From contig NZ_JACSQC010000003.1 in assembly GCF_014836875.1 (NCBI RefSeq), positions 46,619 to 110,618 of the forward strand: a DNA stretch of 64,000 nucleotides. Reading direction: 5' to 3'. The position numbers were made by a program, and so were the translations under genes. The first letter of the stretch is position 1; each line of letters opens with the position of its first letter. This stretch comes from Arthrobacter pullicola (GTDB lineage Bacteria; Actinomycetota; Actinomycetes; Actinomycetales; Micrococcaceae). Positions 35,310-41,020 of the stretch are shown piece after piece. The notes beneath the pieces are model-generated. The model made no database searches and was not told the origin of the DNA. It was given only the letters and a program-made list of their open reading frames with translations.

Positions 35310-35676
35310 GCGTGTTCCGCGGGCGGGCCCTAGGAGCCCGGCCTGGGCGCGCGGGGCCCAAGAGATCCCGCCAGTGCCCGCGGCCGGACCCCAGAGATCC
35401 GGTCACGCCGGCCAGGGTGGGAACCGTTGAGGGCGGACATCCGTGCCGGGTAGGAAGGCGACCGGCGGCATCCGAGCCCACAGACCCGGCTGGAAATCGG
35501 GTTCGGTTTCGGCTTTGGATGTGACATACGGTTTACGGTGACAGGTGCCGACGCGTACCCCCGGAAAGCCGCTAGGAACCGCAGCATCCTCCGATCCCCG
35601 CAGCGAACAGCAAGCCAGCAACCAGCAAACAGCGAACAGCGAACAGCAAACAGCAAACAGCAAACAAAGGAACCGC
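35310..35676 (+). repeat. Gap with heptanucleotide repeat in the GNAT leader
   Basis: This 367-bp gap has no gene. At 35601-35663 it contains nine heptamers of the type CAGCAAA/CAGCGAA in perfect register, ending 14 bp before the acetyltransferase ATG and so within its probable 5' leader. The stretch is purine/CA-rich and strongly unlike the surrounding G/C-rich sequence. Confidence 0.75.
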
Positions 35677-36261
35677 ATGGCAATCCGCCGGCTGACGCAA
35701 GCATCTCCGGCCGAAATTACCGCCCTCGCGGCAACCCTGGCCGAGGCCTTCGAGAACTACCCCTGGACCTGCTGGACCGTGGACAGTGAACGGCACGAGG
35801 CCCGTCTCGCAGCCATCCAGCGCCTCTACCTGGAGCACGTGGGACTCCCTTACGGAGAGGTATGGACGGACGACCGGCTTGAATGCGCTGCCGTCCTCGT
35901 CCAGCCAGGACCCATCGAGCTGGATCCCGGACTCCAGAAAAAATTGTCTGAACTGCACGGTGAGGCAGGGCACCGTCTGCAAACCCGCCTGCCGCAGCCG
36001 CCCCCGGCTGCCTGGACGCTGGCGACCATCGGCGTCGCTCCGGACATCCAAGGCAATGGGCTCGGCTCCGCCCTCCTGGAAGCCATGCTGCAGCACGCGG
36101 ACGCGTATGGGCGCCGCATCGCCCTCGAAACATCCTCCGACCGGAACCTCGCCTTTTACCGCAGACGCAGCTTCGTGGTCTGGGCCGTAACCGAGATGCC
36201 CGACGGCGGACCAATGGTCTGGTCCATGATCAGGGAGCCTGTTTCCGGCGCGGCGGCATAA
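35677..36261 (+). CDS. GNAT-family N-acetyltransferase
   Basis: The 194-aa protein has the acetyl-CoA pyrophosphate loop in TIGVAPDIQGNGLGSALLEAML (motif A, R/Q-x-x-G-x-G/A form) and motif B-like ALETSSDRNLAFYRRRSFVV. It should acetylate a small molecule or protein amine; the substrate is unknown. AAAGGAACCGC places an AGGA RBS before ATG 35677. The 7-bp tandem repeat directly upstream may affect its expression. Confidence 0.88.
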   Translation: MAIRRLTQASPAEITALAATLAEAFENYPWTCWTVDSERHEARLAAIQRLYLEHVGLPYGEVWTDDRLECAAVLVQPGPIELDPGLQKKLSELHGEAGHRLQTRLPQPPPAAWTLATIGVAPDIQGNGLGSALLEAMLQHADAYGRRIALETSSDRNLAFYRRRSFVVWAVTEMPDGGPMVWSMIREPVSGAAA

Positions 36262-36475
36262 ACCAGCTTCACAGGTTAAAAGAGTCAGCCTCATAAATCA
36301 GCGCCCGCCCCACAGTGTCCACGAGCCCCACCCGGCCGCAGCGGGCCCCGGTGGAACCAGGAACAGCAGAGCAAAATGCAGGAGGTCTCGACGCACCCCT
36401 CCCCGGTTGCCAGACTGAAACAGCGCCGGATTACAGAATCTGTTCCGGCCGGACGAAATATCCGGGAGGTTGCCC

Positions 36476-38074
36476 GTGCTCGGTCTGGAACTCCTCGTTG
36501 GCCTGGGAATAGCAATCCTCGTTTGTTCCCTTGCCGCTCCGTACCTTCGGATAGGAGCCCCTCTGCTATTGCTGGCGTGGGGCGTCCTGCTGGGTTTCGT
36601 TCCTGCCTTCCGGGAAGTCGAACTGCCTTCCGAGGTGGTGCTGCTGCTCTTCCTGCCAGCCCTTCTCTACTGGGAAAGCCTGACGACGTCGCTCCGGGAA
36701 ATCCGCACCCATCAGCGGCGGATCATCCTCATGAGCACGGTCCTTGTTGTCCTAACCGCAGCAGGAGTCGCCGCCGCAGCCCATGCGTTGGGAATGCCGT
36801 GGGGGCCGGCCTGGGTCCTGGGTGCCGCCGTCGCACCCACCGACGCCACCGCCGTCGCCGCCCTGGCGAGGATTCTGCCCCACCGCAGCGTGACGCTGCT
36901 GCGCGCTGAGAGCCTGATTAATGATGGAACCGCCCTTGTGGTGTATGCCGTGGCGGTGGGGATAGTCGCGGGAGACCGGGACTATACGCCCCTCGTCGTC
37001 TCGGGCCTGCTCGTCCTGTCCTATGCAGGGGGCATAGCCGCCGGATTCCTGGTGGCCTGGGCGGGGATCCGGCTGCGCCGCCGTGTCGACGACGCGCTGC
37101 TGAGCACTGTCATCAGTTTCCTGACGCCGTTCTCCGCTTTCCTGCTCGCCGAAGAGTTCGGGGGATCGGGGGTGCTGGCCGTGGTGGTCTGCGGCCTGAT
37201 CATGAGCCAGGCCGGACCGCGGATTAACTCCGCGCTGGCCCGAAGGCAGGCCCGGGCGTTCTGGTCATTTTCGACCTTCCTGCTCAACGGGGCCCTGTTC
37301 GCCCTCATCGGCATTGAACTGCACGCCGTCGTGCGGATCCTCAGCGGCGGCGAAATCGCGTTGGGCCTGCTCTGGGTCGCCGTCGTCTCCGCAGTGATCC
37401 TCGCGATTCGCTTCTCCTTCCTGTTCCTCACCAGCTTCCGCGTCCCCCTGCGGAGCAGGGCAACCACCCGAAAACTGCGCCAGGTCAGCAACCGCTCATG
37501 GGTAGTCAGCGGCGTCGCGGGATTCCGGGGCGCTGTCTCGCTAGCCGCAGCCCTGGGCGTTCCGGTCCTCACCGCCGCAGGCACCCCCTTTCCGAACCGC
37601 GGCATGATCATCTTCGTGACCGCGGGCGTGATTGTTGTGACCCTGACGGTCCAAGGCCCGCTGCTGCCCCTCGTAGCCCGCTGGGCCCGGCTGCCGCAGG
37701 ACACCGCGATGGAGAAAGAACGCCAGCTGGCCGAAATCCGGACCACCGAGGACGGGCTCCTGGCTATTCCGCGGCTGGCAGCGCAGCTGGGTACGAACGG
37801 GGACGTCGTGGACCGGATCACCCGGGAACACTGGCACCATCTCGATGTCCTGCGCGCAACCGGGACCGGCACCGGCGAAACGCAGGAGTCTCCGCCTGCG
37901 GTGATGCGTCATCAACAGGACTCGGAACTGCGGCTGGCGCTGCTCGGACGCAAACGTACGGTGCTTCTGCAGCTGCGGGATGACAGGGTCATCGACGACC
38001 GGGTGCTGCGTCTCCTGGAGCTACGGCTCGACGTCGAGGAGCTGCGCCTGACCAGGCCTGACGTCGAGGAGTAA
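36476..38074 (+). CDS. CPA1-type Na+/H+ antiporter
   Basis: The 532-aa protein has about 12 hydrophobic helices and the CPA1 signatures APTDATAVAAL and RAESLINDGTALVVYAVAV (ion-binding Asp/Asn-Asp region). The ~130-residue cytoplasmic C-terminus is rich in charged residues. It exchanges Na+ or K+ for protons in pH and salt homeostasis. A GTG at 36476 is chosen because GGGAGG lies 6 nt upstream; a TTG at 36470 overlaps that RBS. Confidence 0.93.
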   Translation: MLGLELLVGLGIAILVCSLAAPYLRIGAPLLLLAWGVLLGFVPAFREVELPSEVVLLLFLPALLYWESLTTSLREIRTHQRRIILMSTVLVVLTAAGVAAAAHALGMPWGPAWVLGAAVAPTDATAVAALARILPHRSVTLLRAESLINDGTALVVYAVAVGIVAGDRDYTPLVVSGLLVLSYAGGIAAGFLVAWAGIRLRRRVDDALLSTVISFLTPFSAFLLAEEFGGSGVLAVVVCGLIMSQAGPRINSALARRQARAFWSFSTFLLNGALFALIGIELHAVVRILSGGEIALGLLWVAVVSAVILAIRFSFLFLTSFRVPLRSRATTRKLRQVSNRSWVVSGVAGFRGAVSLAAALGVPVLTAAGTPFPNRGMIIFVTAGVIVVTLTVQGPLLPLVARWARLPQDTAMEKERQLAEIRTTEDGLLAIPRLAAQLGTNGDVVDRITREHWHHLDVLRATGTGTGETQESPPAVMRHQQDSELRLALLGRKRTVLLQLRDDRVIDDRVLRLLELRLDVEELRLTRPDVEE

Positions 38075-38184
38075 GTGCGGCGGGCGCCGATGGCGACGGC
38101 TGGGTTAGGGGAGGAGCTCCGCGCTGACATCTGCAGGAGAGATTAGGCGGTACCCCGAACGGCGTCCATGGGCAGAGATGCCCA

Positions 38185-38337
38185 TGTGGATAAGCGCCTA
38201 AGTCGATAACTGCCTATGTTGATGAGCGCCTGTATTGATAACTGCCTGTATCGATAACTGCCTGTGTCGATAACTGTCTGTGTCGATAACTGCCTGTATC
38301 GATAACTGCCTGTGTCGATAACAGCACAGGTGGATAG
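38185..38337. repeat. Ten-unit 16-bp array of DnaA-box-like 9-mers
   Basis: Ten 9-mers start exactly 16 bp apart at 38185, 38201, 38217, 38233, 38249, 38265, 38281, 38297, 38313 and 38329. The first, TGTGGATAA, is a perfect DnaA box (TTATCCACA on the other strand). TGTCGATAA occurs three times and TATCGATAA twice; the others are TGTTGATGA, TATTGATAA, AGTCGATAA and GGTGGATAG. The spacer core is CTGCC or CGCC. The array fills most of the 331-bp gap (38075-38405) between the antiporter and umuC, which otherwise shows no gene. Confidence 0.8.
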
Positions 38338-38405
38338 GCGCGCGCATGCGGATGGGTACGGTCACAGCAGCCCGCCACGGTTGTCCTTCGCCCAGCGGTA
38401 CTTCC

Positions 38406-39779
38406 TCAGCAGGCCTTCACGACCGGCAGCTCCTCCCACTCGGTGGTGTACCGGGGAGACGAAAACTTCCGGGACATGGTCCAATCCGGTTTCGCGCTGG
38501 AGAGGCCGGCCAGGCCCAGGCCGATGCTGGCGGCACCGTACTTGTCCGCAACCTTCCCCAGGAGTTCGCCGAGATGCCGGTGTTCATGGGCGGAGACGAA
38601 TTCATCAAACACCGGTTGTGCACCGGCGTCGGACAGGCCGCTCAGCATCACTCCGGCCTTGGTGTAGGGGACCCCCTCCACGATGGAGTCCTCCAGCGCA
38701 CCGACAGCGGCGCGGGTAAGCACCACGGGATCGGACGTCGGGCTTTGCAGGCGAACCGTAACGGAGGGGAATGACGCCGCCTTCTGGCTAAAGTGCGAGG
38801 TGCCGGCATAAGCGGTGAGCACCCGGGCATGCTGCCCCTCGCGTTCCAGCCGGGCCGCCGCCTGCTGGGCATAGATGCTCATCACCTGCCGCATCTCCGC
38901 CGCCGTCGTCACGGGCGCCGAAAAGCTGCGGGAGAAGATCAGCTGCTGCCGGTCTGCGCGTTCTTCCTCCAGCGGCAGGCAGGAGGTCCCGTTCAGTTCC
39001 AGAACGGTGCGCTGCAGGGTGACGGAGAAGCGGCTGCGGATCAGCGCCGGATCGGCCGCCTTCAGGTCCGCGACGCTGCGGATACCCAGCGCATGCAGGC
39101 GCTTGCCCAGCTTGGCTCCGACGCCCCAGAGACCCGTCACCGGGACGCGGGACATGATGGTCTCCACCACGTCCGGATCCATCGTGTCCAGGTTGCAGAC
39201 TCCGCCCAGGTGCTTGTTCTGTTTCGCGATCCGGTTGGCAAACTTTGCCAGGGTCTTTGTGGTGCCGATGCCCACGCAGACCGGCAGGCCGGTGTGGCGG
39301 GCGACGGCGGCACGGATGTCCGCGCCCTGGGCGTCCAGTTCTGCTGCCGTGCCGGCCAGGCCCAGGAAGGATTCGTCGATGGAGTAGACCTCCTGCCAGA
39401 GCGCGTACCGGCCCAGCAGCTCCATGACCCGGGAACTGAGGTCGCCGTACAGCTCGTAATTGCTCGAACGCTGGACCAGGCCAAGCCGCGGTGCGGCGTC
39501 GGCCAGCTTGAACCACGGCTCGCCGGTCTTGATGCCCAGCGCCTTGGCCTCATCCGAGCGGGCCACCACGCAGCCGTCATTGTTGGAAAGCACCACCACC
39601 GGAATGCCTGCGAGCGCGGGATCGAACGCGCGCTCGCAGGAAACGTAGAAACTGTTGACATCCACCAGGGCAATCCGGTGCAGCTGCGCTGGAGCAGGCG
39701 CGGGCCCGGGCCAGGGAAGGGCGGGACCCGGCGTCGCAGTTTTGGGCATAACGGTGCCGGGCATGTCAGTCTCAGACAT
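38406..39779 (-). CDS. umuC: Y-family DNA polymerase, UmuC-like
   Basis: This is the translesion polymerase subunit of a UmuDC pair. The 457-aa protein has the Y-family start [17 protein letters not shown] (metal-binding Asp), [20 protein letters not shown], the catalytic YSIDESFLG (SxDE) and a helix-hairpin-helix region [18 protein letters not shown]. The C-terminal little-finger and UmuC tail are complete. Its start overlaps the umuD stop by 8 bp. The N-terminus carries about 25 additional Pro-rich residues. Confidence 0.95.
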
Positions 39780-40194
39780 GGTGCAGGCACCGGGTCACAA
39801 CGCCCCAGATCGAAAGCTCCGCCGGGTCCGGCACCGGAATGTCCTCATAGTTGGGATTCTCCGCGGCCAGGACAATGCCCCGGCCGGTGAGCCGGAGCCG
39901 GCGGACGGCCAGCTCGCCGTTCAGGACGGCGACGACGACGGCCCCGTCCCGCGGCGTGAGCGAACGGTCAACGATCAGCTCATCACCGTCGCTGATTCCG
40001 GTGCCGGTCATGGAGTCCCCGGACACCCGCACGATGTACGTCGAGGTGATGTCGCGGATCAGATGCCGGTTGAGGTCGATCCGGCCATCGAAATAGTCGC
40101 GGGACGGGCTGGGAAAGCCGGAGGCGGCATCGCCGTCGGACATGGCCTGGGACCGGGACGATGTCCCGGGAGTATTACCCGAGAACACAGGCAT
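39772..40194 (-). CDS. umuD: UmuD-like S24-family protein with Lys-to-Arg at the catalytic base
   Basis: The 140-aa protein aligns without gaps to E. coli UmuD from the cleavage region (ASGFPSPS, expected cut Ser25-Gly26) through SGDSM (Ser61) and SDGDELIVD. Where UmuD has the catalytic Lys97 in FTVKKLQL, this protein reads LAVRRLRL, so the general-base Lys is Arg98 (codon at 39901-39903). Self-cleavage may be lost or may need another residue. The ATG at 40194 follows GGAGG 7 nt upstream; an SOS box lies just before it. Confidence 0.9.
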
Positions 40195-40207
40195 CCGCAG
40201 ACCTCCA

Positions 40208-40223
40208 TAGAACATACTTTCGA
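40208..40223 (-). promoter_or_regulatory. LexA/SOS box before umuDC
   Basis: Read on the minus strand it is TCGAAAGTATGTTCTA, close to the actinobacterial LexA motif TCGAAC-N4-GTTCGA. It lies 14 bp upstream of the umuD ATG and could also affect the divergent kinase gene. Confidence 0.8.
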
Positions 40224-40285
40224 TTCCTCCAAGGTTAGCACTGGACGGTGGCGGTGGCTGGAAAGTAGTGGCTAGGGTGCCGCCT

Positions 40286-41020
40286 ATGGAATCGACAGCA
40301 ACCTCAGGGGACATTTTCCGGCAGCTGGCAGGAGGACTTCCGCGGCCGGAGGACCTCGGCAGGCACGTCTTCATCGGCGTCGACGGAGTCGATGGAGCCG
40401 GAAAAACCATGTTCGCGGACGAACTGGCCGTTGCCCTGTCAAAGGGGCACGGTGGAGACTCCGTGAGGGTTTCCCCAGTTGTCCGGGTGTCGATTGACGG
40501 CTTCCACCGGATTCGCCGTGAACGCTACCGCCAGGGGAGAGACTCACCGGAAGGATTCTGGCAGGATTCCTACGACTATGAAGCGTTCCGCAGACTCGTT
40601 GTGGAGCCGCTGAAACCCGGAGGCTCCGGCACGTACCGCGCGGCAAGTCACGACCTTGCCACGGATGCCCTCCTCGGCGGCCCCGATCTGGCCATTTCCG
40701 TGCCGTCGGTCATCCTGATTGACGGCATCTTCCTGCACCGTCCGGAGCTGGTGCAGATATGGGATGCGTCCGTGTTCCTCCACGTGTCCTTCACCACCTC
40801 CTTTCAACGGATGGCGGAGCGCGATGGGAGCGATCCACTACCGGAAGCGGCGGCAAACCGAAGGTACATGCAGGGGCAGCTGCTGTATCTGGGAGAGTGC
40901 GCACCGCTCTTCCGTGCCACAACCGCAGTCGATAACAATGACTGGGCGGCGCCGTCGATCCTCTGGCCGGGGTGGATCGTCCAGCCGCCGGGCGGGCAGC
41001 AGGTACCGTTTAACCCATGA
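40286..41020 (+). CDS. Uridine kinase-like P-loop protein
   Basis: The 244-aa protein has a P-loop GVDGVDGAGKT near residues 32-42 and the later kinase pieces VSIDGFHRIRRERY, YDYEAFRRLVVEPL and ILIDGIFLHRPEL. These match the uridine kinase/phosphoribulokinase family. It probably phosphorylates a nucleoside or a related alcohol group. The ATG 40286 start is favoured, but a GTG 18 bp upstream is possible. Its stop overlaps the ATG of a 49-codon gene. Confidence 0.87.
   Translation: MESTATSGDIFRQLAGGLPRPEDLGRHVFIGVDGVDGAGKTMFADELAVALSKGHGGDSVRVSPVVRVSIDGFHRIRRERYRQGRDSPEGFWQDSYDYEAFRRLVVEPLKPGGSGTYRAASHDLATDALLGGPDLAISVPSVILIDGIFLHRPELVQIWDASVFLHVSFTTSFQRMAERDGSDPLPEAAANRRYMQGQLLYLGECAPLFRATTAVDNNDWAAPSILWPGWIVQPPGGQQVPFNP

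Follow-up and report, generated by a model that had tools for sequence, protein, structure and literature searches.

The window analysed here, a 64,000-nucleotide stretch of the Arthrobacter pullicola genome (3.62 Mb), carries a Na+/H+ antiporter gene (36470..38074, plus strand; open reading frame with PF00999, E 1.1e-48) and a umuC-type gene for a Y-family polymerase (38406..39779, minus strand; PF00817, PF11799, PF13438, PF11798). These two genes are convergent, and their stops, at 38074 and 38406, bound a gap of 331 bp (38075-38405). Beyond umuC lies a umuD-type gene with a peptidase S24 domain (39772..40410, minus strand; PF00717, E 3.8e-25), whose true start is probably internal. Near the start of this gene, at 40210-40223, is GAACATACTTTCGA, which we take to resemble the actinobacterial SOS box; this motif is present in 18 of 30 umuC loci, and GAACACACTTTCGA in five of the 30. 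On the other side of the antiporter, a run of 9.3 copies of the heptanucleotide CAGCAAA (35601-35666) falls within the start of, or immediately precedes, a GNAT acetyltransferase gene (35545-36261; PF00583, E 3e-8), where its 7-bp step could alter frame or spacing through slippage.

A tandem array in the antiporter/umuC gap

The gap contains ten 16-bp units (38185-38344 in the register of the first-pass annotation), which had been described as ten DnaA-box-like 9-mers at exact 16-bp intervals between an antiporter and the SOS polymerase operon. The array is real: the 9-mers start every 16 bp without exception between 38185 and 38329, and open reading frames and Pfam domains place them between the named genes. 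The array opens with TGTGGATAA and, as reported, has three copies of TGTCGATAA, in units 6, 7 and 9. The common core proposed for the words, xxTxGATAA, holds in eight of the ten units and fails in unit 3 (TGTTGATGA) and unit 10 (GGTGGATAG).

Tandem Repeats Finder (TRF) reported the array with period 16, 7.6 copies and a score of 172, the highest of 25 rows for the window. Its self-identity at lag 16 is 0.785, compared with maxima of 0.389 over 5000 shuffles of the same bases and 0.507 over all 63,486 array-free 160-base windows of the stretch. When the window was combined with a 400-kb sample of the genome (464 kb), the score ranked fifth among 94 repeat rows; as tandem repeats go, the array is therefore unusual but not unique. 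With 49% G+C it is richer in A+T than the window as a whole (66% G+C). Unit 5 has the same sequence as unit 8, and unit 6 as unit 9, and an exact 38-bp stretch has a second copy 48 bp on; an internal repeat of this length could distort the copy number in a short-read assembly. The repeats have the layout of a minisatellite, with head-to-tail copies of a unit within 10-100 bp, and they resemble bacterial intergenic minisatellites (VNTRs) also in the near-identical middle units, the diverged edge units and the restriction to one lineage; the array differs in that its seed can be identified, as the arm of a promoter operator (see below). CRISPR was discounted, as no spacers separate the units. 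A scan of 37900-38700 against Rfam (E up to 5) matched nothing.

The array occurs at one place in the host genome. The first-pass annotation had proposed looking for the same array in related genomes, and it is absent there: in searches with one genome per species, a three-unit pattern with up to two mismatches matched one of 395 Micrococcaceae genomes, the host itself. A 176-base query against 59 genomes returned, outside the host, only pieces of 15-29 bases with E values of 0.045 or weaker, and matches to the array in the 28 other genomes of the genus did not exceed 29 bp. A 14-mer of the unit (up to two mismatches) had 35 near-matches in the host genome, six of them inside the array, versus nine for the reversed control; no second cluster was present among the matches listed. 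The array was unmatched in collections of plasmids, phages and E. coli, and a pattern of 1.5 units had zero matches in IMG/VR.

The same gap was compared in seven relatives by UmuC, the named ones being Arthrobacter species: A. citreus (G022), Arthrobacter sp. Edens01 (G016), A. luteolus (G017), A. gallicola (G024), A. koreensis (G025), G005 and G023. Its content varies in the genus (window 38075-38405; L083-L089), being a direct junction, a cupin gene, a DUF6507 operon or the array. The antiporter and umuC are directly joined, over 36-61 bp, in A. gallicola, A. koreensis and G005. A. luteolus, the closest relative by UmuC (98%), has a cupin gene in the gap (PF07883, E 1.7e-12); neither its gap nor that of A. 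gallicola, with a UmuC 96% identical, contains the array or the operator described below. The gaps of A. citreus, Edens01 and G023 hold a leftward operon with a DUF6507 gene first. The next gene of the operon has an Abhydrolase_8 domain in A. citreus, and an ORF of similar length occupies that position in Edens01 and G023.

The position of the array between two convergent genes raises the possibility that it forms a structured 3' region acting in termination or stability of the antiporter and umuC transcripts. The plus strand of 38150-38350 folds more strongly than shuffled sequences (z -3.0; none of 200 as stable), although part of this is the hairpin of a neighbouring palindrome, and this stability may point to a function in the transcript of the antiporter. 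Against this proposal, the minus strand folds much like its shuffles (z -1.1; 29 of 200), a simple-consensus scan of 38000-38450 for terminators, which also covered sigma-70 promoters, found neither, and the three direct junctions do without an array in 36-61 bp. We regard a role of this kind as highly improbable.

DnaA-box content of the array

On the minus strand, the words of units 1-5 read TTATCCACA, TTATCGACT, TCATCAACA, TTATCAATA and TTATCGATA, and those of units 6-10 read TTATCGACA, TTATCGACA, TTATCGATA, TTATCGACA and CTATCCACC. One published account gives the DnaA-box consensus as TTWTNCACA (PMC5835720). By this consensus the first 9-mer is a perfect DnaA box, as had been claimed, and it is the only such unit: three others have one misfit and six have two, and the C at position 6 is missing in all of units 2-9. 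This TTATCCACA word (38185..38193, minus strand) is also the sole match to TTWTNCACA or TTGTCCACA in the window.

The lead hypothesis of the first-pass annotation was an iteron-like or DnaA-titrating array. In such a reading, a datA-like cluster or other titration site would lower free DnaA or DnaA-ATP, with DnaA bound tightly at unit 1 and loading along the weaker units of the same orientation. The array does share with E. coli datA a clustering of DnaA-box-like 9-mers outside oriC, and the single orientation of its one consensus, three one-misfit and six two-misfit boxes would suit such loading. Misfits are themselves common in datA, which in the same account has two consensus boxes and four with one misfit, together with a two-misfit box that is essential for DnaA-ATP hydrolysis (PMC5835720). 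The array differs from datA, however, in its single consensus box among ten units, its regular 16-bp tandem layout, the loss of position 6 in eight units and its absence from relatives; the three-unit pattern occurs in none of the 394 other family genomes, so that a locus kept among related genomes, as expected of the datA type, was not found. A 400-kb sample of the genome contained ten TTWTNCACA matches, which extrapolates to about 90 per genome, and one more box would then titrate little. Three TTRTCCACA boxes are located in the host gap between dnaA and dnaN (DnaA identified by PF08299, DnaN by Pfam). On these sequence comparisons, titration is not supported. DnaA loading on the weak sites of the array is conceivable, but the idea is weakened, and we consider a datA-like cluster very unlikely. 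One further point touches it from both sides: TTATCCACA recurs upstream of WXG100-like genes, which counts in its favour, but it belongs there to a promoter element found without an array (see below).

Plasmid iterons are likewise short direct repeats with fixed spacing. Their step is about 20 bp, whereas that of the array is 16 bp, and its immediate flanks, the antiporter gene and umuC, include no replication-initiator or other replication gene.

A palindromic promoter element beside the array

The array overlaps an 18-bp palindrome, ATGGGCAGAGATGCCCAT (38168..38185), detected in a pattern scan of 29 genomes. When the units are set in phase with this putative operator, unit 1 (TGCCCATGTGGATAAG; 38179-38194, plus strand) consists of the right, upstream arm of the palindrome and its flank, and TRF and the unit layout place units 2-10 at 38195-38338 (plus strand), with TGCCTGTGTCGATAAC / TGCCTGTATCGATAAC as the commonest middle unit. 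A leftward promoter is predicted at the palindrome, with a -35-like hexamer TGGACG (38163..38168, minus strand) separated by 17 bp from a -10-like hexamer TAATCT (38140..38145, minus strand), a spacing shared by roughly half of the element's other sites. The site at 38140-38185 matches the ATGGGNA-N3-CTNCCCAT palindrome with zero mismatches, even though its centre, on the minus strand, is ATCTCT and not the AGTTCT usual among 67 distinct contexts. It also has TANNNT at the 17/18-bp distance from a -35 starting where the palindrome ends. No WXG100-like or DUF6507 gene is present within 300 bp downstream, for which reason we call the promoter and its operator orphan.

This promoter is homologous to that of the DUF6507 operon, which adjoins the umuC stop in A. 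citreus, Edens01 and G023. Positions 38164-38193 agree with the operators of A. citreus and Edens01 in 26 of 30 bases (score 40 for each, where 200 shuffles reached at most 29 and 26, respectively), and the window operator gives a 34-column alignment with that of G023, including one gap (score 36, against 29 at most in 200 shuffles); these three alignments covered the umuC-side 220-279 bases of each gap. For the other four relatives, alignment scores of the gaps to the window operator were within those of shuffles. In A. citreus, 25 bp separate the palindrome from the umuC stop, and the array occupies the corresponding interval in the window. Comparison of 38061-38162 with five relatives gave no operon remnant or shared junction above shuffles.

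Within the genus, the pattern ATGGGNANNNCTNCCCAT matched 78 sites in 14 of 29 genomes, and its reversed control matched once. Most sites read ATGGGNAGTTCTNCCCAT; they are found within L109-L134, L165-L182, L209-L228, L240, L243, L246 and L248-L251, although not in each of these loci. A DUF6507 match (42 sites) or a WXG100-like match (19 sites) lies 0-300 bp downstream of 61 of the 78. Viewed from the genes, the palindrome precedes 19/19 WXG100-like genes and 42/60 DUF6507 matches in the 14 palindrome-bearing genomes. We term these genes WXG100-"like" because the match of the query to PF06013 (E 2.3e-4) falls short of the cut-off that Pfam sets. The other 17 sites, including that of the window, have neither match downstream; at ten loci from this set the neighbouring ORFs were listed and carry no product assignment. 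Eight genomes of the genus without a WXG100-like match also lack the palindrome, and seven further genomes have WXG100-like genes and no palindrome.

Merging of identical contexts and the omission of some sites reduced the 78 sites to 67 distinct contexts for comparison. The AGTTCT centre is found in 60 of them, and with the spacer counted from a -35 that begins on the last base of the palindrome, a sense TANNNT follows at 17 or 18 bp in 29/60, versus 1/60 for the reversed direction. This count omits the seven contexts whose centres differ; three of the seven, including the window site, have TANNNT in one direction. TRF at a lowered threshold detected an array of this kind at the window site only, among the 67 contexts. 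Two copies of a 16-bp unit span the palindrome of one G023 site (L079), and two other tandem repeats, each no more than about 300 bp from a palindrome site, are a 55-bp unit (2.9 copies) in A. koreensis (L170) and a 15-bp unit (4.7 copies) in G002 (L223).

Outside the genus, 14 of 54 genomes had a WXG100-like match, and the looser pattern ATGGG-N8-CCCAT was present within 400 bases upstream of seven of these 14 genes, in six genera (a raw count). The centre is AGTTCT/AGAACT at five of the seven sites and deviates at the other two. The palindrome pattern matched nine stretches in IMG/VR, about as many as expected by chance on a rough, uncomputed estimate. Among the matches listed for literature on WXG100, DUF6507 and type VII secretion or the DnaA box, in the portions of text these provide, the element is undescribed.

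The window site resembles this element in its palindrome, its -35/-10 spacing and the adjoining TTATCCACA, the last being a property of part of the element's sites; it differs in lacking a target gene, in its deviant centre and in the tenfold repetition of one arm. A candidate protein recognizing the WXG100/DUF6507 operator might bind the multiplied half-sites, so that the array would act as a sponge for the regulator or as an upstream enhancer tuning the orphan promoter. The operator arm and its flank are indeed contained in unit 1, the -35 and -10 hexamers look intact, and the host genome has four further palindrome sites (C8, C10 twice and C14). The arm, however, is not kept: it is GCCCATG in unit 1 and GCCTAAG, GCCTATG, GCCTGTA, GCCTGTG or GTCTGTG in units 2-9. 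In addition, a 16-bp step puts alternate sites on opposite faces of the helix, and the predicted promoter has no DUF6507 or WXG100-like gene downstream to control. Such a sponge or enhancer appears very improbable.

The DnaA-like word also recurs with the element. Perfect TTATCCACA is present at -149 to -174, always on the sense strand, upstream of 12 of 26 WXG100-like loci of the genus, which are related and not independent. Both strands of the 76.6 kb of partly overlapping flanks of these 26 loci contain zero TTATCCACA or TTGTCCACA. The word abuts the palindrome in five of the 12 loci, and the other seven have no palindrome; it is also present in 2/14 WXG100-like loci of other genera. The loci with the word are L109-L112, L114, L118, L119, L122, L125, L127-L129, L242 and L244, and seven genomes of the genus without the palindrome are among them. 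The host's own WXG100-like gene (L113) has the palindrome and lacks TTATCCACA. As judged by this recurrence, the DnaA-like word of unit 1 is a recurrent part of a putative WXG100 promoter type, and it is thus probably older than the array. If TTATCCACA were a true DnaA box, DnaA and a candidate palindrome-binding regulator might together tie WXG100-like genes of Micrococcaceae to the replication cycle, with the multiplied arm as a sponge that shifts this control here; we place this among the least probable readings of the locus.

Origin of the array and its significance

We think it probable that the array is a minisatellite private to this lineage, with one half of the orphan promoter as its seed. 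The ancestor would have had a DUF6507-type operon, probably associated with type VII secretion, between the antiporter and umuC, the arrangement seen today in A. citreus, Edens01 and G023. With the gaps of A. luteolus and A. gallicola devoid of operator and array, this ancestral state is inferred from the more distant species. The operon would then have been lost, while the promoter, with its palindromic operator and the adjoining TTATCCACA, was retained. Next, slipped-strand replication would probably have copied the 16 bp that comprise the upstream arm of the operator and its flank into a head-to-tail series extending towards umuC. At least one later step of 48 bp may have taken place mid-array, which fits the exact 38-bp repeat at 48 bp and the identity of units 5 with 8 and 6 with 9. 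Slippage usually leaves a pattern of this kind. An early duplication of 32 bp is weakly indicated by the 13 of 16 bases common to units 1 and 3 and by a TRF score of 171 for period 32, compared with 172 for period 16. Unit 2, however, is nearer to units 6 and 9 (13/16) than to unit 4 (12/16). The units would subsequently have drifted from both the DnaA box and the operator arm, and the array is for this reason most likely without a dedicated function.

Further points against this origin are the lack of a recognised operon remnant or shared junction in 38061-38162 in the comparison with five relatives, the deviant centre of the window operator, the 17 of 78 palindromes without a target, the 18 of 60 DUF6507 matches without a palindrome and the strong plus-strand folding of 38150-38350. 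As a fallback, the first-pass annotation had suggested a simple minisatellite whose seed happened to be a DnaA-box-like word. This suggestion fits, with the upstream arm of the orphan promoter as the likely seed; the earlier description is thus retained for the array and the minisatellite, and its lead, DnaA titration or iterons, is not.

The idea of a DnaA array gives way to a traceable origin, in which a promoter element seemingly outlived its operon and seeded a minisatellite. A second outcome of the comparison is a well-defined palindromic element that precedes WXG100-like and DUF6507 genes in the genus and, in six other genera of the family, WXG100-like genes, in part with TTATCCACA conserved next to it. 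The palindrome ATGGGTAGTTCTCCCCAT offers a concrete DNA bait for a regulator of secretion-associated genes in actinobacteria, and the regulon of this operator would be of more interest than the array itself.
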